From Corallincola sp. (GTDB taxonomy: Bacteria > Pseudomonadota > Gammaproteobacteria > Enterobacterales > Neiellaceae), in NCBI GenBank assembly GCA_017998495.1, contig JAGOCY010000021.1:1-10302 (forward strand): a DNA stretch of 10,302 bases, written 5' to 3'. The translations under genes and the position numbers were made by a program. The notes beneath the pieces are model-generated. The model worked only from the letters and a program-made list of their open reading frames with translations. It did no database searches and had not been told where the DNA came from. Each line of letters opens with the position of its first letter. Within the stretch, counting starts at the first letter, position 1. Below are positions 1-10,302 of this stretch, piece by piece.

Positions 1-537
1 GCCTGCCACCAGTGCGGAGAAGTCCAGGCTGAGCTGAGGCAGCCGCTTGGCCAGGGTGGCATCGGTAACCAGTAACTTGTCCAGCCCAGTCAAGGCTCGG
101 GCGGAGGCAATAGCAGCATCATCAGGTAGGTTTTGTGGCTGTTGATGGCGGTCAAAACCCCACAGCTTAAGCAAGGGGCCGACCGTGACATCGAGGGCGC
201 CATGGCTCAACTGGCCTAGACGCAGGGCCTCCTGGGCCACCACCACCAGCTCGGCAGACACGGCAACAGGCTCTGTCGTCTGCTGCTGGTTAAAGCGCGC
301 CAGTTCGGAGTCATCACGCCAGGTGGAAAATTGCTGGTCAATCTCGGCCAGCACCCGCTCAACCTGCTGCTGGGCGTCTAGCGGCAGCCCCTCAGCAGGC
401 GCTACCAGGCTCAGGTGGTAACTGCTACCCATGGTCGGGCCGGACAACTGCAGCAACGGCTGTTGCTGTACTGGCTGCTCACAGGCAGTGATGAAAAAAA
501 CCAGCCCGATCAGGGCTGGTTTGAGGTACTGCAGCAT
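1..537 (-). CDS. apbE: ApbE FAD:protein FMN transferase, lipoprotein, 3' end cut by the window edge
   Basis: Reading leftwards from the ATG at 537, the frame stays open for 179 codons to the window edge, so the C-terminal part is missing. The first 19 residues form a lipoprotein signal: a short hydrophobic stretch ending in the lipobox ITAC, with Cys19 as the lipidated residue. This places the enzyme outside the inner membrane, where the FMN domains of NqrC and NqrB are modified. ApbE-family motifs follow in order: GPTMGSSYHL near residue 34, STWRDDSELARFN near 72-84, GALDVTVGPLLKLWGF near 113, and LDFSAL close to the cut end. Known family function: Mg2+-dependent transfer of FMN from FAD to Thr/Ser of the D-x-x-[ST]-G-A-[ST] motif. 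The gene starts only 9 nt after the nqrF stop, so it is probably the last or a late gene of the nqr transcript. No strong Shine-Dalgarno precedes it, which suggests coupling to nqrF translation. Confidence 0.93.
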   Translation of the reverse strand, partial: MLQYLKPALIGLVFFITACEQPVQQQPLLQLSGPTMGSSYHLSLVAPAEGLPLDAQQQVERVLAEIDQQFSTWRDDSELARFNQQQTTEPVAVSAELVVVAQEALRLGQLSHGALDVTVGPLLKLWGFDRHQQPQNLPDDAAIASARALTGLDKLLVTDATLAKRLPQLSLDFSALVAG

Positions 538-546
538 CGGCACTGA

Positions 547-1773
547 TCAGCCACCAAAGTCATCGAGGAGGATGTTTTCCTCTTCCACGCCGAGACTCTT
601 GAGCATGTTGATCACCGCCGCGTTCATCACTGGCGGGCCACACATGTAGAACTCACAGTCCTCAGGCGCATCATGGTTCTTGAGGTAATTCTCGAACAGC
701 ACGTTATGGATGAAGCCGGTGTAGCCGGTCCAGTTGTCGCCGGGCTGCGGATCGGAAAGAGCCACATGCCACTGGAAGTTGGGATTCTCCGCCTGCAGCA
801 TGTCGAAGTCCTCGACATAGAACATCTCGCGTTTGGAACGGGCACCGTACCAGAAGCTGATCTTGCGCTGGCTTTTCAGGCGACGCAGCTGATCGAAGAT
901 ATGGCTGCGCATCGGCGCCATGCCCGCACCACCACCGATAAACACCATCTCGGCGTTGGTATCCTTGGCGAAGAACTCACCAAAGGGCCCGGAGATGGTC
1001 ACCTTGTCACCTGGCTTCAGACTCCAGATGTAGGAGGACATCTTGCCAGGGGGGGCCTTGGGATTACCCGGCGGTGGCGTAGCGATACGCACGTTGAGCA
1101 TGATGATGCCCGCTTCTTCCGGATAGTTGGCCATCGAATAGGCGCGCACCACTGGCTCATCGACCTTGGATTCAATCTTGAAGAAACCAAAGCGCTCCCA
1201 GTCGCCGCGATACTGCTCTTCAATATCAAAGTCGGCGAACTTGATATGGTGAGCTGGCGCCTCAATCTGGATATAGCCACCAGCACGGAAGGGCACCGCT
1301 TCGCCTTCGGGAATCTTGAGTTTCAGCTCTTTAATGAAGGTCGCGACGTTATCGTTGGAGATAACCTCACATTCCCACTTCTTGATCCCGAACACCTCTT
1401 CATGGAGCTCGATTTTCATGTCCTGCTTAACCGCCACCTGGCAGGCCAGACGACAGCCTTCACGCGCCTCTTTCTTGCTGATGTGTGACAATTCGGTGGG
1501 CAGGATATCGCCGCCCCCCTCTTTGATCACCACCCGGCACTGGCCGCAGGAGCCACCACCGCCACAGGCCGACGACACGAAAATACCGTTATCCGCCAAG
1601 GCACCGAGCAGTTTATTACCGGCGCTGGAGGTGATGGTTTTGGCGGGATCATCGTTGATGGCGATGGTGATCGCACCACTGCTGACCAGCTTGGCCTTGG
1701 CCGCCAGAATGAACAGCACCAGCACCACCACGATCAGGGTGAACATCACCACACCGAGAACAATCTCTTGCAT
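547..1773 (-). CDS. nqrF: Na+-translocating NADH:quinone reductase subunit F (NADH dehydrogenase subunit)
   Basis: This is the 408-aa NADH-oxidising subunit, the same length as Vibrio NqrF. One N-terminal membrane helix (about residues 4-24) anchors a cytoplasmic body. A plant-type ferredoxin domain follows, with 2Fe-2S ligands Cys70, Cys76, Cys79 and Cys111 (motif [10 protein letters not shown], then CRLAC). A ferredoxin-reductase-like FAD domain carries R210-A-Y212-S213 and Ser246. The NADH domain has the glycine-rich [14 protein letters not shown] and the late FYMCGPP motif. All key residues are present. The subunit passes electrons from NADH via FAD and the 2Fe-2S cluster into the membrane part of the pump. 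The ATG at 1773 is chosen because the membrane helix begins there and AGAGGA lies 9 nt upstream (1783-1788). nqrF is the last nqr gene, 21 nt after nqrE. Confidence 0.98.
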
Positions 1774-1782
1774 AAGTTCAGA

Positions 1783-1788
1783 TCCTCT
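1783..1788 (-). promoter_or_regulatory. Shine-Dalgarno of nqrF
   Basis: AGAGGA on the minus strand, 9 nt before the nqrF ATG, in the 21-nt gap after nqrE. This is the longest gap inside the nqr genes. Confidence 0.7.
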
Positions 1789-1794
1789 GTGGTG

Positions 1795-2403
1795 TTACAG
1801 CTGCACGCCGGAGAACGACATGAAGCCGAGAGCCATCAGCCCTGCAGTGATAAAAGTGATACCCAGACCGCGCAGGCCATCGGGTACATCCGCGTATTTC
1901 ATCTTTTCGCGGATCCCGGCCAGGGCAACGATGGCCAACATCCAGCCAAGGCCGGCACCAAAGCCATAAACAACGCTTTCACCAAAGGCATACTCACGCT
2001 GCACCATGAATGATACGCCGCCAAAAATGGCGCAGTTCACCGTGATCAGCGGCAGGAAGATGCCGAGGGCGTTGTAAAGCGGTGGGAAATATTTATCGAG
2101 AGCCATCTCCAGCACCTGCACCAGCGCCGCAATGACACCGATGTAAGTGATAAAGCCGAGGAATGACAGATCCGCCTCGGGCAGCCCCGCCCAGGCCAAG
2201 GCGCCCTCTTTGAGAATGTACTGGTAGACCACCTGGTTAACGGGCACCGAAATGGTCAACACCACTACCACGGCCACGCCCAGGCCCAGTGCGGTTTTTA
2301 CTTTTTTAGAAACCGCCAGGAAGGTACACATGCCGAGAAAGAAGGCCAGCGCCATGTTCTCAACAAACACGGCCCGCACCAGCAGTGAAATATAGTGTTC
2401 CAT
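1795..2403 (-). CDS. nqrE: Na+-translocating NADH:quinone reductase subunit E
   Basis: This is a polytopic inner-membrane protein of 202 aa and the homologue of RnfA/RsxA. It begins [16 protein letters not shown] and has about six hydrophobic segments. Two conserved cysteines are visible: Cys26 in [11 protein letters not shown] and Cys124 in [11 protein letters not shown]. In the Vibrio enzyme the equivalent NqrE cysteines, with two from NqrD, hold an intramembrane Fe-S centre that moves electrons between NqrF and NqrC. Compared with my memory of the Vibrio protein (about 198 aa) there are about four extra residues around 66-77, between the second and third hydrophobic segments, which explains Cys124 rather than Cys120. 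AAGGAG at 2410-2415, 6 nt before the ATG, fixes the start; it lies inside the last Lys-Glu codons of nqrD. The gap to nqrD is 3 nt. Confidence 0.98.
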
Positions 2404-2406
2404 CGC

Positions 2407-3039
2407 TTACTCCTTCGGCTCTACCTGTTCCGGGCGCCAGGTGCGCACGGCCCAGATGATCAAACCGATGATGAAAAATGCCGAAGGCGGCAACAGCAAC
2501 AGGCCATTGCTGAGATACCAGCCACCATTGCTGGTGAGCTGCAGCACTTCGATACCGAAAATAGAGCCTGAACCCAGCAACTCACGGATGAAGCCGACCA
2601 GCAACAGGATGGCGGAGTAACCAAGACCATTGCCGATGCCATCGATGAAGCTCATCAGCGGCGGGCTCTTCATCGCATAGGCTTCGGTACGGCCCATAAC
2701 AATACAGTTGGTGATGATCAGGCCGACAAACACCGACAGCTGTTTACTGATCTCATAGGCATAAGCCTTGAGGATCTGGTCCACCACGATCACCAGCGAG
2801 GCGATGATGGTCATCTGCACGATGATGCGTACGCTGCTGGGGATATGGTTGCGGATCATCGACACAAACAGGCTGGAGAAGCCGGTGACCAGGGTCAGGG
2901 CGATGCTCATCACCACTGCCGTTTCCAGCTTGGAGGTGACCGCCAGCGCCGAGCAAACCCCCAGCACCTGCAGGGTGATGGGGTTATTGGCAACGATCGG
3001 CCCGAACAGCGTGTTCTTGATCTCTTTGGTATCAGCCAT
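2407..3039 (-). CDS. nqrD: Na+-translocating NADH:quinone reductase subunit D
   Basis: This membrane subunit of 210 aa is the homologue of RnfE/RsxE, and its length matches Vibrio NqrD. The frame stays open up to 3108, but the start is set at the ATG at 3039 ([19 protein letters not shown]). Family members begin there, and AAGGAG lies 9 nt upstream (3049-3054). Cys29 ([15 protein letters not shown]) and Cys112 ([11 protein letters not shown]) are the two conserved cysteines that, with the NqrE pair, hold the intramembrane Fe-S centre. Other conserved blocks are [33 protein letters not shown] and the tail EQVEPKE. About six transmembrane segments are expected. The start codon lies inside the end of nqrC (8-bp overlap), so translation is probably coupled. 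Confidence 0.98.
2410..2415 (-). promoter_or_regulatory. Shine-Dalgarno of nqrE inside nqrD
   Basis: AAGGAG on the minus strand, 6 nt before the nqrE ATG. It is formed by the last Lys-Glu codons of nqrD and confirms the nqrE start. Confidence 0.85.
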
Positions 3040-3823
3040 GGTTATTGGCTCCTTGACGCAGCTTGGCAAGGAAAGGCCCAAAGCCATACTCACCCAACCA
3101 GAAGGCAAAGGAGTTGTGCACCCCTTTACTGGTCAGGGTGGCACCGGCCAGGCCATCGATTTGATAAGCGAAGTTGGGATCATTAGGGTCCGCGGTTGAC
3201 TTGAGCACCGTCAACGCCACCTCACCCTGCTCGTTGAACAGCTTCTTGCCATCCCACTGGGCGATCCACAGCGGATTGACCACTTCGCCGCCCAACCCCG
3301 GAGTCTCCCCTTGGTCGTAATAGACCACGGAGCGGGCTGTCACCCCGTCGGGCTGAATGGCCAGGAAGGCATACATGGTCGACCACAGCCCTTGGCCATG
3401 AACCGGGATCACATAGCTGGATACCGCACCGCTCTCATCATGAGCGATATAGACACTGGCCAGGCGACTGACGGTTCGCACCCCGGCGACATCAGCCTCC
3501 GGCGGCACCGGCTTGGCAAAGGCCTTCTGTTTGACCGCCTTGCGCTGATCAAAAGTGTTGGGATCAACCTCGTCAACATACTCACCGCTAGCCAGGTCAA
3601 TCACCTTGGCTTCGATATGTTTGTTATAGATCTCGGGGATCTTGCCCTCAGGAGCGGTGATCCCTGCAGCGGCCAGAATATTGCGCTGCTTGTCCAGTGC
3701 CCGCTGCGTCAGCTGTTGTGGCCGCAGCGACACCGCTGCGACTGAAACCACCAGAGCGCACACCAGACAGGAGGCGACCACCACGAGCATGGTCTTGCTG
3801 AATGAATCATTAGAGTTAGACAT
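3032..3823 (-). CDS. nqrC: Na+-translocating NADH:quinone reductase subunit C (covalent FMN subunit)
   Basis: NqrC of 263 aa has one N-terminal membrane helix (about residues 11-33) and a periplasmic FMN-binding domain. Conserved blocks are [29 protein letters not shown] and, near the C-terminus, D-G-L-A-G-A-T. The last Thr, Thr229, is the residue expected to carry FMN through a phosphoester bond made by ApbE. It is followed by LTSKGV and the typical ending [16 protein letters not shown]. The residue before GAT is Ala where Vibrio NqrC has Ser, a substitution also known in RnfG-type proteins. The frame stays open upstream to 3895, but the ATG at 3823 ([11 protein letters not shown]) is chosen because it directly precedes the membrane helix and has GGAGACAGG 7-15 nt upstream. 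The gene overlaps the end of nqrB by 8 bp. Confidence 0.97.
3049..3054 (-). promoter_or_regulatory. Shine-Dalgarno of nqrD inside nqrC
   Basis: AAGGAG on the minus strand, 9 nt before the ATG at 3039, within the Gln-Gly codons near the end of nqrC. It decides the nqrD start against the in-frame ATG at 3108. Confidence 0.85.
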
Positions 3824-5039
3824 ACCGTGCCTGTCTCCGCTTGATGTTGGACTGCGCCACAAAGTAGTCGAACAGCGGCGCAAACAGGTTGGCAAAGAGG
3901 ATGGCCAGCATCATCCCCTCCGGGTAAGCGGGGTTAACCACCCGAATCATGATCACCATGACACCAATCAGCGCGCCATAGGCATAGCGACCGGTGTTGG
4001 TGAAGGAGGCCGACACCGGATCGGTCGCCATGAACAGCCAGCCGATGGCAAAACCACCCAATACCAGATGCCAGTACCAAGGCAGCGCAAACAATGGATT
4101 GGTGGTCGAGCCGATCAGATTAAACAGCCAGGTGGTGGCGATCATGCCCACCAACACCCCGACCACGATGCGCCAGCTAGCGATGCGGGCGTAGATAATG
4201 ATGGCGCCGCCGATCAGCAGCATCAGGGTTGAGACCTCACCGATGGAGCCCTGGATATTGCCGAGGAAGGCATCCATCCAGGTAATGCCGGCGTTGGCCA
4301 GCGCCTGCACAGCCCCCAATGCTGGATCGGCCTGGGCGGCAATCGACAGCGCCGTAGCACCGGAGAACCCGTCTACCGCCGTCCACACAGCGTCACCGCT
4401 GATCTGCGCCGGGTAAGCGAAGAACAGGAAGGCACGCCCCGCCAGCGCCGGATTCAGGAAGTTACGCCCGGTACCACCAAAGACCTCTTTGGCGACAACG
4501 ATACCGAAGGTGATCCCCAGTGCTGCCTGCCACAGCGGCAGCGACGGCGGCACGATCAGGGCAAAAAGGATGGAGGAGACGAAAAAGCCTTCGTTGATCT
4601 CATGCTTGCGCACTGAGGCAAAGAGCACCTCCCAGAAGCCGCCGACAACAAATACTGTCAGATAGATCGGCAGCGCCCAACAGGCACCGTAGAGCATCAT
4701 GCTGCCCCAGCCCGCGTCGCCACCCAGCTGCCCCCCCAACAGATGGAACAAGCCCACCTGCCAGGCATCCGGCAGCTGATAGCCAGCAGCCAGCGCCAAA
4801 TTGGCCTGCTGGCCGATGTTGAACCAGCCCCACAGCATTGCCGGCCACAACGCCAGGTAGACGGTGATCATCATCCGTTTGAGATCGAGGAAATCCCGCA
4901 CATGGGTGTTCTTGCCGGTGACTTTGCCCGGCGTGTAGAAGATGGTGTACGCCGCTTCAAACAGGGCATACCACTTTTCATAGCGGCCGCCCGTTTCGAA
5001 GTGCGGTTCGATCTTCTCAAAAAAGCTCTTCAGCCCCAT
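3816..5039 (-). CDS. nqrB: Na+-translocating NADH:quinone reductase subunit B
   Basis: This is the large membrane subunit of 407 aa, with about ten hydrophobic segments, homologous to RnfD. In Vibrio NqrB this subunit carries covalent FMN and riboflavin, takes part in quinone reduction and forms the Na+ path. The flavinylation motif D223-G-F-S-G-A-T229 is intact, and Thr229 corresponds to Vibrio Thr236. Other conserved blocks are [16 protein letters not shown] near the N-terminus, [33 protein letters not shown] (given here in pieces: [10 protein letters not shown] and NPALAGRAF), and the late [16 protein letters not shown]. Gly133-Gly134 ([10 protein letters not shown]) align by the same 7-residue offset with the Vibrio glycines linked to HQNO/korormicin sensitivity and are unchanged, which suggests a sensitive enzyme. 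AAGGAGGG at 5045-5052, 5 nt before the ATG, decides this start over the in-frame ATG at 5057. The gap to nqrA is 1 nt. Confidence 0.98.
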
Positions 5040-5040
5040 G

Positions 5041-6384
5041 TCAGCCCTCCTTCTCAATCTGGTTCAGGCAGGTGCGCAGGTAACTGCCGTACTCGTACTT
5101 GCCCGGACAGACGAAGGTGCAGAGCGCCAGGTCTTCTTCATCCAGTTCCAGTAACCCCAGCTCCTGAGCGCTGTCGACATCGCCAGACAGCAGATCGCGC
5201 AGCAACAGGGTTGGCAGCAGGTCAAGCGGCATCACCCGCTCGTACATACCGATGGGCACCATCGCCCGATCACTGCCACCGGTGGTGGTGGTGAAGGCAA
5301 AGCGCTTGGCAGGGAAAAGGTGAGACAAAAACGCCCGGGTCAGGGAGAACTTGTCGCTGCCTGGCTTCAACCAGCCGATGAACTCCTTGTCATAACCTTC
5401 CGCCAGCGCCGTGACCTGCAGATGGTAACGGCCCAGATAAGCCACCGGCCCTTCGGCAGTGTTACCTGCCAGCACCGAGCCGCTGATCACGCGGTTATCG
5501 CCATCAGCCAGCTCAGTGGCGGTCAGCTCATCAATGGCCGCGCCCAGCAGGGTGCGCAACAGGCGCGGCTGCTTGACCTGTGGGCCCGCCAGGGCAATCA
5601 CCCGTTCGCTGTTAAGCTGGCCGGTTGTGAACAGCTGGCCAATGGCAATACAGTCCTGGTAGTTCAGATGCCACACTGATTTGTGAGCGTTGACCGGTTC
5701 CAAGAAGTGAATGTGGGTGCCGACCAGGCCAGCCGGATGAGGGCCACTAAATTCGTGGGTTTCAACCCGCGGCAGGCTGACGTTGGGTACGGCTGAACCC
5801 GCTTTCTTGCACACATAGAGTTTGCCTTCGGTCAGCCGGCTGAGAACCGCAACCCCTGATGCAAACGCCGCTTCGTGACCGGTGATCACCGTAGCCGGGT
5901 CGGCGGCCAGCGGGTTACTGTCCATGGCGTTGATAAAGATCGCCCGTGGTTTGGCATCCGCCGCTGGCACCCGCGAAAACGGCCGGGTGCGCAACGCCGT
6001 CCACAGCCCGGAGCGCTGCAGCTGGGCACGCACCAACGCCTCATCGAGGCTGGCCAGTTGGCCTGGCTCGAACTGCTCAAAGCGCTCAGCGTCATCACCA
6101 CTCAAGCGGATCACTACCGACAGCAGCGAGCGCTTGTCGCCACGATTGATGGCCACCACCTCACCAGCCGCTGGCGCAGTAAAGAGCACGCCGGGGTTCT
6201 TTTTGTCTTCGAATAGTGGCTGGCCCTTACCTACCAGATCGCCCTCGCGCACCAACATGGTCGGGCGTAGCCCGACATAGTCGTTGCCAAGCAGGGCGAC
6301 GTGGGTAAGAGCGGGGCCACTGTGAATGACCTGCTGCGGTGCGCCCGCAATGGGCAGGTCCAGCCCCTTTCTGATTTTGATCAT
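5041..6384 (-). CDS. nqrA: Na+-translocating NADH:quinone reductase subunit A
   Basis: NqrA of 447 aa has essentially the same length as the Vibrio protein. It is the peripheral cytoplasmic subunit associated with NqrB and is known to bind ubiquinone analogues. It starts [16 protein letters not shown]. Near residues 37-90 it has the RnfC/NqrA-type barrel region ([46 protein letters not shown]). The C-terminus has the family signature [17 protein letters not shown] with Cys422 and Cys426, ending IEKEG. The reading frame is open for 44 more codons upstream, to 6516. That extension has no family resemblance, and all homologues begin at MIKI, so the ATG at 6384 is used. Only a weak GAG lies upstream of it. 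It is the first gene of the nqr operon, behind a 204-bp intergenic region. Confidence 0.97.
5045..5052 (-). promoter_or_regulatory. Shine-Dalgarno of nqrB inside nqrA
   Basis: AAGGAGGG on the minus strand, 5 nt before the ATG at 5039, made by the last Lys-Glu-Gly codons of nqrA. It decides the nqrB start against the ATG at 5057. Confidence 0.87.
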
Positions 6385-6588
6385 AGCTACTCGCGTGTCG
6401 TTATTGGGCAGTATGGTCACGAACGGCCGAGCTCCGTAGCAGCGACAACGTACGCCACAGGGGGGCTCAACCGCTCCCAAGCTTGAACGAAACAGTCGGG
6501 ATTCTAACCCAACCATCCCGGCAGATTAAGTTCAGTCTGGCAAAGTGTTAGCTCCGTCCACTGGAACGTGATGGGCCGCCCGCTTCGC
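6385..6588 (-). promoter_or_regulatory. nqr operon leader and promoter region
   Basis: This is the 204-bp non-coding interval between the bolA stop and the nqrA start. I see no stem-loop with a T-run that would end bolA transcription, so bolA transcripts may read into nqr. The region is GC-rich and holds a candidate sigma-70 promoter (listed separately). From that promoter the nqrA leader would be about 110 nt. I found no recognisable riboswitch, FNR box or other named operator in it. Confidence 0.5.
6501..6529 (-). promoter_or_regulatory. candidate sigma-70 promoter for nqrA
   Basis: On the minus strand a -10-like TAGAAT (6501-6506, 5 of 6 consensus bases) is preceded, after 17 nt, by a weak -35-like TTAATC (6524-6529, 3 of 6). 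Transcription would start near 6494. The spacing is ideal but the -35 box is poor, so this is a prediction only. Confidence 0.38.
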
Positions 6589-6949: not shown

Positions 6950-7549
6950 TTAACCTGTAGCGGGGCTGACGATGGTTCTGAAGGTCAAGTTTATACGGGG
7001 ATGCTCGACCCGCGCCTCTTTTGGCAAGGCGTGAGACCAGCAACGCTGGGTGTCTCCGGCCATCACCAGCAGGTCGCCACTGGCCAGCGGCAACTCAAAA
7101 CGGCATCCGAGATGCTTGTGACGCAGCAGAAAACGGCGGCTGGCTCCCAGCGACAGCGATGCAATCACTGGCCGCTCACCCAGTTCCGGCTCATCATCGC
7201 TGTGCCAGCCCATATGATCGGCGCCGGAACGGTACAGATTGACAAGCACGCTGTTAAAGCGCTGGCCACAGGCCTCGCCCACCTCAGCAGCGACAGCCGC
7301 TACTGCCGGATGCCAAGGGTCCGGCTCAAACAGGGTGGCAGAGTAGCGATAGCGGGCCTCGGCATCACCCATCCACCACTGGCGGCGGGGAATGGCCACC
7401 TGGCGGCCGTAGATACGGATCTGCGGTTGCTGCCACTGCCCCTGTTCAAGCAGCTGCTGCAGCAGCGACGCCGCGCGATCCCGGGCCATAAACCCGGGCC
7501 AATAGAGCAACTCGCTGTCGGCCAGCTGCCAGCGCAAAAAATGACTCAT
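6950..7549 (-). CDS. alkB: AlkB-like Fe(II)/2-oxoglutarate-dependent DNA/RNA repair dioxygenase (ALKBH2-like)
   Basis: This 199-aa protein belongs to the AlkB family, which removes methyl groups from 1-methyladenine and 3-methylcytosine by oxidation. The iron ligands are visible as His116-x-Asp118 (MGWHSDDE) and His173 (WSHALP). The 2-oxoglutarate-binding signature R-x-N-x-T-x-R is Arg185-Ile-Asn-Leu-Thr-Phe-Arg191, and the conserved Asn104-x-Tyr106 (VLVNLYRSGAD) precedes the HxD. Overall it resembles human ALKBH2 (IPRRQ, GDAEARYRYS, DPWHP, FNSVLVNLY, ASLSLGASRRFLLRHK) more than E. coli AlkB, so the symbol is at family level. The ATG at 7549 is the first possible start because an in-frame TGA lies two codons upstream; GAGG is only 1 nt from it, so the ribosome site is poor. 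The gene is divergent from the response regulator at 7639 and 4 nt ahead of bolA. Confidence 0.93.
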   Translation of the reverse strand: MSHFLRWQLADSELLYWPGFMARDRAASLLQQLLEQGQWQQPQIRIYGRQVAIPRRQWWMGDAEARYRYSATLFEPDPWHPAVAAVAAEVGEACGQRFNSVLVNLYRSGADHMGWHSDDEPELGERPVIASLSLGASRRFLLRHKHLGCRFELPLASGDLLVMAGDTQRCWSHALPKEARVEHPRINLTFRTIVSPATG

Positions 7550-7638
7550 GCCTCACAGATCCCGATGGTGGCGATTGTTTGTCCAACTTAGGCTGCCCAC
7601 ACTCGCCGGTTGCCGCCACTGCCGTTGTTGTCGAGTAC
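7550..7638. promoter_or_regulatory. divergent intergenic region between alkB and the first response regulator
   Basis: These 89 bp must contain the promoters for both divergent units unless either starts further inside a gene. I looked for -35/-10 pairs on both strands and found none convincing. An in-frame TTG at 7579 would extend the response regulator by 20 residues into this region. Confidence 0.4.
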
Positions 7639-8313
7639 ATGGACAGTTCTGCCGCACTGCAGGTTCTGGTCGTCGACCATGATCAACAGGTTCGGGATCT
7701 GATCGCCGATCTGCTGCATCGCCTCGGCCACAGTGTCTGTACGCTCGCCGATGGCCAGGCACTCAGCGATCAACTGCTGGCCATGGCCAGTTTTATCGTG
7801 GTTAACCTGCATGATGCCGAAGAGAGTGGTCTAGCCCTGTATCAACGCATTCGCGAGCGTTATACCACGCCAATGCTGATGCTGATCAAAGAGGCCCAGC
7901 TGACCACCACCCGCAGCGCCCTCACCTGCGGTTTTGCCGATGTCCTGCTCAAACCCTTCTCCGCCAGCGAGCTGCTAACCAGCATGCGTCAGTTGTTGCG
8001 CCATGCTGGCCATAACGACGGCGAGCAGCGGATCGGCCGTTGGCGTTTCAACGGTCACACCCACCAGCTGCTCGGCGATGACGGCCAGCTGCTGCAGCTG
8101 ACCAGCGGCGAAGCGACCCTGCTGCTGGCACTGCTGGCCCAGCGCGGCGAGGTGGTTGACCGCCAGCAGCTGGCGATCCGCCTCACCGGAGCACCAGCCG
8201 CCAGCGGCGATCGCACCATTGATGTCCAGATCAGTCGGTTAAGACGACGGCTGGGCGATAGCCATGGCATCACCACTATTCGTGGCCGAGGTTATCGGCT
8301 CGACTCTGATTAA
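7639..8313 (+). CDS. OmpR-family response regulator with degenerate receiver (pseudo-receiver)
   Basis: The product is 224 aa: a receiver domain (about 7-122) and an OmpR/PhoB winged-helix DNA-binding domain (about 130-224; LTSGEATLLLALL, RTIDVQISRLRRRLGD, RGRGYRL). The receiver has lost its chemistry. Aligned without gaps to the neighbouring regulator, the phosphorylated Asp is Asn56 (VVNLHDAEESG against ILDVMLPGEDG). The second acidic pocket residue is His14 (VVDHD against VVDDD), and the conserved Thr is Ile83 (MLIKEA against MLTASS). Asp13 and Lys105-Pro106 remain. Normal phosphorylation is therefore not expected. The reading frame is intact and the DNA-binding half is well conserved, so it is not an obvious pseudogene. 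The ATG at 7639 is chosen because it lies six residues before the receiver's first strand; a TTG at 7579 is possible. It precedes a canonical regulator and kinase. Confidence 0.92.
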   Translation: MDSSAALQVLVVDHDQQVRDLIADLLHRLGHSVCTLADGQALSDQLLAMASFIVVNLHDAEESGLALYQRIRERYTTPMLMLIKEAQLTTTRSALTCGFADVLLKPFSASELLTSMRQLLRHAGHNDGEQRIGRWRFNGHTHQLLGDDGQLLQLTSGEATLLLALLAQRGEVVDRQQLAIRLTGAPAASGDRTIDVQISRLRRRLGDSHGITTIRGRGYRLDSD

Positions 8314-8421
8314 GCAGCAGGCGGGAATCTTGCCCGGCGTCTCACTGTTGGTTGCGGCAGATTGTCTGTCGCCTCGCCCTTTTGCATGCTGCTGCCACCT
8401 GTTCTCGTGGCCATCATCGCC
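8314..8421 (+). other. interval between the two response regulators
   Basis: This is 108 bp between the first regulator's stop and the chosen start of the second. A short CGGG/CCCG stem near 8330-8337 has no T-run, so I do not call a terminator. Part of it may be coding if the second regulator starts at TTG 8362, ATG 8386 or GTG 8407. Confidence 0.4.
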
Positions 8422-9141
8422 GTGACCCAACCCCAGGACGCTGACCCGCTGCCAAGCCCGACCATTGTGGTGGTCGATGATGATGAAGAGATCCGCGATC
8501 TGCTGGGCGAGCACCTGCGCCGGGCTGGCTTTGCCGTAGCGGCACTGGCCGATGGCCGGGGTCTGGATGAGGCGTTGCTGCGCCGGGCGGCCGTGGTGAT
8601 CCTGGATGTGATGCTGCCGGGCGAAGATGGCTTCAGCCTATGCCGACGCATCCGTAGCCGGCTGGACGTTCCCATCATCATGCTCACCGCCAGCTCCGAT
8701 GAAGCAGACCGCGTGATCGGTCTGGAGCTGGGGGCCGACGATTACGTGGCCAAGCCGTTCTCACCACGAGAACTGGTCGCCCGTATCAAGGCGCTGTTGC
8801 GCCGCAGCCGACGTCAGGGGCTGGGGCCACGGGCAGTGCGCTTTGGCGGCTGGCATCTGGATCTGGTCAGCCATCAGTTACAGCATGAAAATGGCAGCCA
8901 GGTCGCCTTATCCGGCGCCGAGTTCGCCCTGCTTAACCTGTTTGTCAGCCAGCCTCAGCAGATCCTCGATCGTGACCAGATCTGCCAGGCATTACATGGC
9001 CGTGACGCCCTGCCTTTCGATCGCAGCGTCGATGTCCAGGTCAGTCGCCTGCGTCAGCGACTAGGTGACGATCAGGCACTGATCCGCACGGTGCGCGGGC
9101 GCGGTTATGTGCTGGCCGCCGCTGTCAGCCATGAGGGTTAA
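8422..9141 (+). CDS. OmpR-family response regulator, canonical
   Basis: With the GTG at 8422 the product is 239 aa, the usual OmpR length. The receiver has all active-site residues: acidic pair Asp19-Asp20 (VVVDDDEEIRDLL), phosphoacceptor Asp62 (ILDVMLPGEDGFSLCRRIR), Thr89 (IIMLTASSDEADRV) and Lys111 (ADDYVAKPFSPREL). The C-terminal winged helix has LSGAEFALLNLFVSQP, the recognition helix RSVDVQVSRLRQRLGD and the wing RTVRGRGYVLAA. The receiver is strikingly OmpR-like (MLPGEDG, CRRIRS). The start is uncertain: the ATG at 8386 and TTG at 8362 are in frame but would add a hydrophobic leader unlike any regulator, and none of the starts has a good Shine-Dalgarno. The last 11 bases overlap the kinase gene, so this is the likely cognate partner. 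Target genes cannot be told from the sequence. Confidence 0.93.
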   Translation: MTQPQDADPLPSPTIVVVDDDEEIRDLLGEHLRRAGFAVAALADGRGLDEALLRRAAVVILDVMLPGEDGFSLCRRIRSRLDVPIIMLTASSDEADRVIGLELGADDYVAKPFSPRELVARIKALLRRSRRQGLGPRAVRFGGWHLDLVSHQLQHENGSQVALSGAEFALLNLFVSQPQQILDRDQICQALHGRDALPFDRSVDVQVSRLRQRLGDDQALIRTVRGRGYVLAAAVSHEG

Positions 9142-10302
9142 GCAGCTCCTGCCACGCACCATGTTCGGGCGCATGGTGCTGATTCTGCTGGCTACCGTCT
9201 TGGCCGCCCAAGCGCTGGTGTCGGTGGTATGGCGTAGTCAGGTAGTCAACCGTGACGAGCAGACCCTGCGCGAAGTGTCACGCTCGCTGGCGCTGTCGGT
9301 GGCGTCCACCGCCCGTTTCTTTAATGCCCTGCCTGCCGATTACCGTCACATCGTCCTCAATCAGCTGCGCAGCATCGGCGGTACCCGCTTTTTTGTCTCG
9401 ATCAACAGCGAACAGCTGCAGATGGCAGCGCTGACGACCACCCCCCGTCAGGATCTGGTGCGGGCCGAAGTGGCAGGAACTGTGCGCCAGCAGTTGGGGG
9501 CCCGCCACGATGTGCAGGTGATCTTCACCAGTGCCGAGGAACTGCGCATCCTCAACAACAACACCCGGCTTGGCGATCTGCCCCCCACCTGGGCCGAATA
9601 CAGCCTGACCCTGCATCCGCTTGATCCCCCTATTCTGGTAACCCAGATCCAACTGGCCGACCATCAGTGGCTCTATCTGGCGGCGTTGCTGCCGATGCCG
9701 CTACTGCCGCTGGATGACAACTATCTCAACCCGCGCGACCTGCTGCTGTTCAGTCTCACTGCGGTACTGTTGCTGGCGGCCGCCGCCCTGCTGTCGCGCT
9801 GGGTAGCCCGGCCGCTGAGGCGGCTGGTCAAGGCCGCCCGCGACCTTGGGGCCCAGCGCGAGGCCGCGCCCATTCCCGAGCAGGGTCCCAACGAGGTACG
9901 CGAAGCGGCGCGCGCCCTCAACGCCATGCAGCGCCAGCTCGACCGTTACATTCAGGATCGGGCTCAGCTGTTCTCCAGCATCTCCCACGACCTTAAAACC
10001 CCCATCACCCGTTTGCGACTGCGGGTGGAACTGCTCGATGACGACGAGCAGCGGCATAACTTGCTGCGCAATCTGGATGAGCTGGAACTGCTGGTCAAAG
10101 GGGCTTTGCAGTGCGTTAAAGAGACAGATATTCACGAGAACATCGAACCTGTGGATATCGGCCTGCTGTTGCAACAGCTGCGCAGCGATCTGGCGCAACC
10201 AGAGCAGCTCACTATCAACGGTGGCTGCCGACCCCTGCGCGGCAAACCGCTGGCCCTCAAGCGCTGTCTGACTAATCTCGTCGACAATGCCCTCAAGTAT
10301 GG
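9131..10302 (+). CDS. EnvZ-like membrane sensor histidine kinase, 3' end cut by the window edge
   Basis: From the ATG at 9131 the frame is open to the window edge (390 complete codons). Order of domains: a short cytoplasmic start (LLPRTMFGRM, like EnvZ), first membrane helix about 15-34, a periplasmic region about 35-202, second membrane helix about 204-222, and a HAMP domain from about 223 with the conserved Pro228 (RWVARPLRRLVKAARDLG). The HisKA domain carries His286 in SISHDLKTPITRLRLR. Asp287 and Thr290 fit the H-D-x-x-T pattern of kinases that also dephosphorylate their partner. The catalytic N-box (NLVDNALKYG, Asn382 and Asn386) sits at the very edge, so the G-boxes are outside. The periplasmic part is longer than EnvZ's as I remember it and gives no clue to the signal. 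The 11-bp overlap with the preceding regulator implies cotranslation. Without the C-terminus completeness cannot be judged. Confidence 0.93.
   Translation, partial: MRVKQLLPRTMFGRMVLILLATVLAAQALVSVVWRSQVVNRDEQTLREVSRSLALSVASTARFFNALPADYRHIVLNQLRSIGGTRFFVSINSEQLQMAALTTTPRQDLVRAEVAGTVRQQLGARHDVQVIFTSAEELRILNNNTRLGDLPPTWAEYSLTLHPLDPPILVTQIQLADHQWLYLAALLPMPLLPLDDNYLNPRDLLLFSLTAVLLLAAAALLSRWVARPLRRLVKAARDLGAQREAAPIPEQGPNEVREAARALNAMQRQLDRYIQDRAQLFSSISHDLKTPITRLRLRVELLDDDEQRHNLLRNLDELELLVKGALQCVKETDIHENIEPVDIGLLLQQLRSDLAQPEQLTINGGCRPLRGKPLALKRCLTNLVDNALKY

Follow-up and report, generated by a model that had tools for sequence, protein, structure and literature searches.

The window, that is the whole stretch of DNA that was analysed (10,302 nucleotides), is one contig of a draft Corallincola genome (453 contigs totalling 2.2 Mb, completeness 60.8%) and carries a gene for an OmpR/PhoB-type regulator, here called RRa, followed by a canonical response regulator, RR2, and a sensor histidine kinase. 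The features are as follows.

6950..7549, minus strand: AlkB-like 2OG-Fe(II) oxygenase, divergent neighbour (PF13532, 136 bits)
7639..8313, plus strand: RRa, OmpR/PhoB-type regulator with a predicted pseudo-receiver (ORF, Pfam Response_reg and Trans_reg_C, relatives)
7660..8001, plus strand: predicted pseudo-receiver domain of RRa, residues 8-121 (codons, alignment, AlphaFold2 model)
7678..7758, plus strand: residues 14-40 of RRa (alpha1-beta2, with Cys34), the stretch most conserved towards the distant relative P0006
7678-7680 (H14), 7738-7740 (C34), 7804-7806 (N56), 7885-7887 (I83) and 7951-7953 (K105), plus strand: residue codons of RRa
8035..8310, plus strand: winged-helix DNA-binding domain of RRa, residues 133-224 (8/8 effector signature positions)
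8461..9141, plus strand: RR2, canonical response regulator of the OmpR type, GltR-like judging from the gene order of one relative (Pfam, canonical residues)
9107..10300, plus strand: sensor histidine kinase, EnvZ/GtrS-like, truncated at the contig end (HAMP, HisKA)

RR2 stayed below the cut-off of its best NCBIfam model (OmpR, 221 bits against 331), and the kinase below that of the EnvZ model (113 bits against 415). RR2 possibly starts upstream of 8461: its frame is open from a TTG at 8362, and the first receiver strand lies at about 8461. By eye, the ORFs on the minus strand of positions 1-6516 look like a Na+-NQR operon, in which an ApbE-like gene comes first on the contig, and the ORF beyond the AlkB-like gene resembles BolA. 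Just upstream of the AlkB gene, positions 7550-7585 are, again by eye, near-identical to 9053-9090 of the corresponding locus (L038) in a sister species, with GGCGATTGTTTGT unchanged before the two sequences diverge; the two species may share a promoter or operator here. Positions 7400-9200 were scanned for promoters, which gave no sigma-70-like site where 0.6 were expected, and two terminator-like sites where 1.0 was expected.

The RRa gene is intact, reading from the ATG at 7639 to the stop at 8311-8313 and encoding 224 residues, in agreement with the sequence-only reading, which had described an open frame and a full-length protein. Pfam recognises in it a receiver (Response_reg PF00072, 49.4 bits vs a cut-off of 30.2) and the C-terminal winged helix of the OmpR/PhoB family (Trans_reg_C PF00486, 64.7 bits vs 26.2), and no NCBIfam family reached its cut-off among the best 25 of 61 matches, PhoB standing at the top with 92.2 bits (cut-off 296.2). 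The gapless alignment of its receiver to that of RR2 was reproduced, RR2 having Asp, Asp, Thr, Tyr and Lys at the positions equivalent to 14, 56, 83, 102 and 105. Read directly, the codons of RRa are GAC at residue 13, CAT at 14 (7678), AAC at 56 (7804), ATC at 83 (7885) and AAA at 105; codons and alignment agree exactly with the earlier claim that Asn56, His14 and Ile83 stand where canonical receivers have the phospho-acceptor Asp, the second metal-binding acid and the switch Thr, and that Asp13 and Lys105 are still present. With three of five active-site residues missing, RRa is by sequence criterion a regulator of a known class, the pseudo-receivers (PsR) or aspartate-less receivers (ALR), and a conserved one.

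How far this conservation reaches was judged from its relatives. Among about 5.8 billion proteins searched there were 55 matches, including a near-copy from the window itself (P0002, 99% identical, not counted further), three close relatives (P0003, P0004 and P0005 with 93%, 91% and 86% identity, respectively) and one distant metagenomic protein (P0006, 43-44%); the remaining matches were at most 38% identical over most of the length, or partial, with up to 50% over a third. P0005 is identical to the RRa protein of G001, the genome of a sister species of the same genus (about 88% complete), on which a literature search found no publication. In a profile search, which scored the 7998 candidates with most words in common and in which RRa and the four relatives that built the profile match by construction, P0002-P0006 had E < 1e-100 and the next match 3.5e-39 (best 120 of 328 matches). 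Across 59 genomes (58 relatives besides the genome of the window), nothing outside the genus scored better than a match of 38% identity; the family-level search covered seven genomes, and a scan of genome contigs gave seven loci, G001 as the sole close relative and six weak matches (27-29%). The contigs that carry P0003, P0004 and P0006 (1887, 4358 and 2654 bases, respectively) could not be linked by length to any RR2 copy; the RR2 matches at 99%, 92% and 76% identity sit on contigs of 24429, 2645 and 1140 bases.

For a residue-wise comparison we used an alignment of 79 rows, from which L056 was dropped (RRa fetched again), leaving five RRa proteins and 73 canonical rows (32 database proteins, 40 genome loci and RR2) that are near matches and not a random sample, five of them being one gene fetched twice. 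The canonical rows have D14, D56, Tyr102 and Arg115 in 73 of 73 cases and Thr (70) or Ser (3) at position 83. Compared with them, RRa has additionally lost Pro at D+4 (A60), Ala/Gly at T+1 (K84) and Tyr at K-3 (V102), and carries E96T, D100A and R115S; residues 96, 100, 102 and 115, at all of which the canonical residue is missing, form part of the alpha4-beta5-alpha5 dimer face of OmpR-type regulators. In the order window, P0003, P0004, P0005, P0006, position 14 reads H/N/H/N/R, position 56 N/N/N/N/D, position 83 I/I/I/I/T, position 102 V/V/L/V/S and position 115 S/S/S/S/Q. The proposed conservation of the three substitutions thus held for Asn56 and Ile83, which occur in all three close relatives (4/4 with the window), and failed for His14, which is H or N; since it is not fixed, the common feature at this position is only the loss of the acid, gone in 5/5 RRa proteins. 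Nor does it extend to P0006, in which Tyr and the second acid are missing but Asp56 and Thr83 are kept, so that acceptor loss is not a trait of the whole RRa family; the alpha4 stretch of P0006 contains four prolines and a gap of two residues. Should P0006 be a plain orthologue, the acceptor may have been lost later than the metal acid and the dimer face. Of the positions with at least 95% invariance across the canonical rows, 10 of the 20 that make up the receiver signature are altered in all four close RRa proteins, and all eight of the effector signature are retained in all five RRa proteins.

Such an accumulation of altered invariant residues in a gene that seems restricted to few relatives (its own copy and four proteins below E 1e-100) might be taken as the mark of a duplicate that is decaying and will eventually disappear. 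The nucleotide comparison of the window with G001 (Nei-Gojobori, a single pair with dS near 1) gave a dN/dS of 0.085 at a dS of 0.97, below 1 as had been anticipated; the values for other genes of the window were 0.114 (AlkB), 0.167 (BolA), 0.069 (NqrA), 0.027 (NqrB) and 0.022 (NqrF), with Nqr and BolA named by eye. Furthermore, neither of the two RRa copies available as DNA contains a stop or frameshift, the other relatives are full-length proteins, and close relatives with a normal Asp and scattered frameshifts, the pattern named beforehand as speaking for decay, did not appear (Asn56 in 3/3). Because Asn56 and Ile83 are kept at a dN/dS of about 0.09, we read RRa as a conserved pseudo-receiver and dismiss the decaying copy, to which we give practically no credence. 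By parts, dN/dS was 0.060 for the receiver, 0.211 for the linker and 0.101 for the effector, with 13 of 121 receiver and 15 of 92 effector residues changed (a difference given without a significance test). The suggestion that selection kept DNA binding while phosphorylation was lost needs amending in this respect: the receiver is, on these values, under no less constraint than the DNA-binding domain.

Could RRa nevertheless still be phosphorylated, either after deamidation of Asn56 to Asp or on another residue? Asn at the acceptor site of a CheY mutant reportedly undergoes deamidation, Asp13 and Lys105 are still there, and P0006 retains both Asp56 and Thr83. Against this, the second acid, the Thr, the small residue at T+1, the Pro at D+4 and the Tyr at K-3 have gone in all four close proteins, and we regard continued phosphorylation as very unlikely.

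The constraint on the receiver appears to lie in an unusual place. Between RRa and P0006, identity is 82% at residues 14-30 (alpha1) and 80% at 31-40 (beta2), compared with 18% at 79-95. Among canonical pairs with 40-55% receiver identity, the identity of residues 8-57 minus that of 58-121 was on average -0.20 and at most +0.035; for RRa and P0006 the same difference was +0.30 to +0.37, a value reached by none of the 1622 canonical pairs, which share rows and are hence not independent. Judged from these comparisons, the usual alpha4-beta5-alpha5 face is rewritten and conservation towards P0006, one metagenomic protein, is found in alpha1-beta2 instead. A mosaic P0006, or one from a chimeric contig, would give the same picture of moved constraint. 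P0006 is about 80% identical to RRa over residues 14-40 and 18-60% identical in later receiver segments, as strong constraint or a mosaic would produce. For the pair of window and G001, silent divergence over residues 1-40 is ordinary (pS 0.48, vs 0.55 for the whole gene) and gives no sign of a recent conversion between these two.

Within this stretch, Cys34 is present in 5/5 RRa proteins and in 0/73 canonical rows, where the residue is variable and mostly polar, and it lies 20 residues after the second position of the acidic pair (DD2+20), inside the predicted strand beta2 (32-36 in the AlphaFold2 model); Cys97, the only other cysteine of RRa, occurs in 4/4 close RRa proteins and in 1/73 canonical rows. 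This would fit a redox switch in which oxidation of Cys34, alone or with Cys97, governs dimerisation or conformation, as reported for the atypical regulators of Campylobacteria and, with the cysteine elsewhere, for RitR; Cys34 is one residue off the DD+19 position named in the available part of PMC12632262. However, a conserved cysteine is no evidence of redox sensing, and, in the portion of a 2021 paper available to us, the reactive cysteines are undefined even for HP1021. P0006 has a gap at Cys97 and other cysteines at 39, 65 and 216 (own numbering), so that a Cys34-Cys97 pair cannot be general. A linker cysteine of the RitR type was sought in the RRa proteins and is absent, RRa having cysteines at 34 and 97 only, and RRa is therefore not using the RitR mechanism. 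We consider a redox switch conceivable but unlikely; a redox or partner role of the alpha1-beta2 patch is a testable proposal.

The AlphaFold2 model of RRa (70 rows; mean pLDDT 86.5, pTM 0.61, weak at 91-100) predicts strands and helices in (beta-alpha)5 order, a receiver followed by a winged helix. Searched with Foldseek against the PDB, it had OmpR-type regulators at the top; among the best 50 matches, the whole-query TM was highest for four of the five RitR chains (C128 mutants), at 0.59-0.61, while the fifth chain had 0.47. The same 50 include CosR and an entry whose title describes an atypical orphan regulator that is phosphorylation-independent. As the relative placement of the two domains is uncertain, these matches show fold and not mechanism.

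Gene order was compared with the other six genomes of the family (G001-G006), in all of which the AlkB neighbour fixes the syntenic position. The window has the order AlkB-RRa-RR2-kinase, G002-G006 have AlkB-RR2-kinase without RRa, and G001 has AlkB-RRa-gtsA without RR2 or kinase at the locus, no remnant of either being found in 20.7 kb around its RRa. Elsewhere in G001, the best-scoring kinase match was 33% identical and another reached 34% over 120 residues, and two regulators compared with RR2 were 44% identical; at about 88% completeness a kinase elsewhere in this genome could be missed. In G004 the locus continues past the kinase with genes for a sugar-binding protein, two permeases and an ATPase, and the window's contig ends before the place of these transporter genes. 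The sugar-binding gene gtsA of G001 is 72% identical to that of G004 and had no match in G002, G003, G005 and G006. Directly after RRa in G001 (L038 9998-11272), it appears to be an orphan, which is odd for a binding protein: the best-scoring gtsB match in this genome was 25% identical, with a further short one at 30%.

The tandem RRa-RR2-kinase of the window invites the reading that RRa is a partner of the adjacent two-component system, as a heterodimer with RR2 or by docking to the kinase through alpha1 in competition with RR2. The alpha1 face is used by receivers for kinase docking, and it is alpha1 that is conserved towards P0006. Partner and competition models have also been proposed for CmrT of CmrRST, according to the portion of PMC12632262 available. 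Yet the sister species retains RRa under selection, in the same place, with neither RR2 nor kinase there, and the alpha4-beta5-alpha5 face that OmpR-type dimers use is rewritten in RRa. RRa thus seems independent of the neighbouring kinase; synteny makes a dependence on it unlikely, and a partnership with the adjacent pair appears rather doubtful to us. Since the site chemistry is lost and the neighbouring kinase is absent in the sister species, RRa likely acts independently of phosphorylation, as far as can be judged at the sequence level. Its preservation in related bacteria despite the lost site suggests that it works by a signal other than the phosphate switch, and a ligand-sensing or constitutive state is possible.

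With regard to origin, a tandem duplication of RR2 may be the simplest reading of the position of RRa, and residues 188-207 are 65% identical in the two proteins. In a tree of 54 rows, which omits 25 of the 79 (six repeats, P0006 and 18 more), the support for joining RRa to the window's RR2 was 88/73, and that for joining it to the RR2-like clade 93/80, both short of significance; an alternative tree with an RR2-like clade excluding RRa was not rejected (p-AU 0.231). A tree of 73 rows with P0006 placed RRa outside the RR2-like clade (support 97/99), on a long branch.

The region between RRa and gtsA in G001 contains TGTTAACACTGTTA (L038 9849-9862), a direct repeat TGTTA-N4-TGTTA with one match in 18 kb of this genome against 0.01 expected. 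Upstream of gtsA in G004 (L047 10367-11006), TGTTAC occurs three times within 36 bases, which are three of its 12 occurrences in 18 kb; the TGTTAC boxes had been spotted by eye before counting. Moreover, GTGACAAA, part of a P. aeruginosa GltR-binding site (PMC7927077, in part), is one base off the reverse complement of TTTGTTAC, which is present upstream of gtsA in G004 and which alone is at chance level, no rarer than expected. TGTTAC was not found upstream of RRa (window, G001) or of RR2 (window, G004). We take the TGTTA and TGTTAC boxes as a lead to possible binding sites.

Together, the substitutions and their conservation in close relatives, the purifying selection, and the persistence of RRa without the kinase pair at the locus are direct observations, from which we infer its origin, DNA targets, dimerisation mode and any signal. 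RRa may derive from a tandem duplication of the GltR-like RR2. It appears to have lost the phosphotransfer chemistry, the Y-T coupling and the dimer face that alpha4-beta5-alpha5 forms in canonical regulators, selection having presumably retained the DNA-binding domain together with a re-purposed receiver whose constrained surface would be alpha1-beta2 with Cys34. Such a protein would be expected to bind DNA independently of Asp phosphorylation and of the adjacent kinase, perhaps at sites resembling those of RR2, e.g., upstream of the sugar-binding gene that follows RRa in the sister species. We hold this account, a pseudo-receiver factor, perhaps from RR2 duplication, with phosphotransfer lost, the receiver re-purposed and DNA binding independent of a kinase, to be probable. 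A bolder extension, in which RRa founds a lineage-specific class with its control surface moved away from the phospho-site and the alpha4-beta5-alpha5 face to the alpha1-beta2 region surrounding Cys34, with redox state, a ligand or a partner as input, and has taken over, in the sister species, the sugar-binding gene of a lost GltR-GtrS-like system, strikes us as improbable.

Compared with known receivers of this kind, RRa is ordinary in some respects and not in others. Counts put aspartate-less receivers at about 4% of receivers; for pseudo-receivers the share of bacterial receivers is about 6%, where 13% had been estimated earlier (PMC12632262, in part). Asn is the second commonest substitute for the phospho-Asp (16% of ALRs), and most ALRs keep acid 1 and the Lys and lose acid 2 (PMC4395418, in part), which is likewise the pattern of RRa. 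However, 44.5% of ALRs keep both Y-T coupling residues (PMC4395418, same part), both of which RRa lacks, and known PsR dimers use part of alpha4-beta5-alpha5, except CsgD, FleQ, RitR and VpsT (PMC12632262, in part), whereas this face is rewritten in RRa. In Clostridioides difficile the CmrRST system clusters the pseudo-receiver CmrT with a canonical regulator and a kinase (PMC12548384, in part), and CmrT is, as RRa, an OmpR-type pseudo-receiver regulator beside such a pair; but the acceptor site of CmrT is a phospho-mimetic Glu, with Thr and Lys retained, where RRa has Asn56 and Ile83, and in the sister species the locus contains RRa and no canonical pair. An OmpR-type aspartate-less regulator is also found in RitR of Streptococcus pneumoniae, yet its redox dimerisation relies on C128 in the linker (PMC12632262, in part), and the RRa linker has no Cys. 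The atypical orphans HP1021, Cj1608 and CemR of Campylobacteria carry a conserved Cys (C27 or C31, DD+19) in the alpha1-beta2 loop (PMC12632262, in part), and Cys34 of RRa stands at DD2+20, in its predicted beta2; HP1021 has six cysteines, according to the portion of its literature available, and RRa two.

For RR2 and the kinase the nearest model is GltR-GtrS, which regulates gtsABCD in P. aeruginosa, where the gene order is glk-gtrS-gltR according to the accessible part of the source. The likeness is that RR2 and the kinase lie upstream of a sugar ABC transporter in G004 and that the kinase adjoins RR2 in the window and in G002-G006; the gene order is unlike that of P. aeruginosa. Matches to RR2 named by source as Pseudomonas are 61-64% identical, none named GltR among the matches listed, and a literature search on GltR with atypical response regulators gave one review, on urinary infections, and no RRa counterpart in Pseudomonas. 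The switching of bacterial pseudo-receivers has been called a mystery, and most of those studied are orphans (PMC12632262, in part). In this respect, the pair alone, a pseudo-receiver with the pair and a pseudo-receiver without the pair, all at the same chromosomal place, represent a natural deletion series that asks whether a pseudo-receiver works via its neighbouring two-component system or alone, and the apparently moved constraint points to a surface (alpha1-beta2) and a residue (Cys34) worth testing, which together make RRa more useful than an ordinary pseudo-receiver example.
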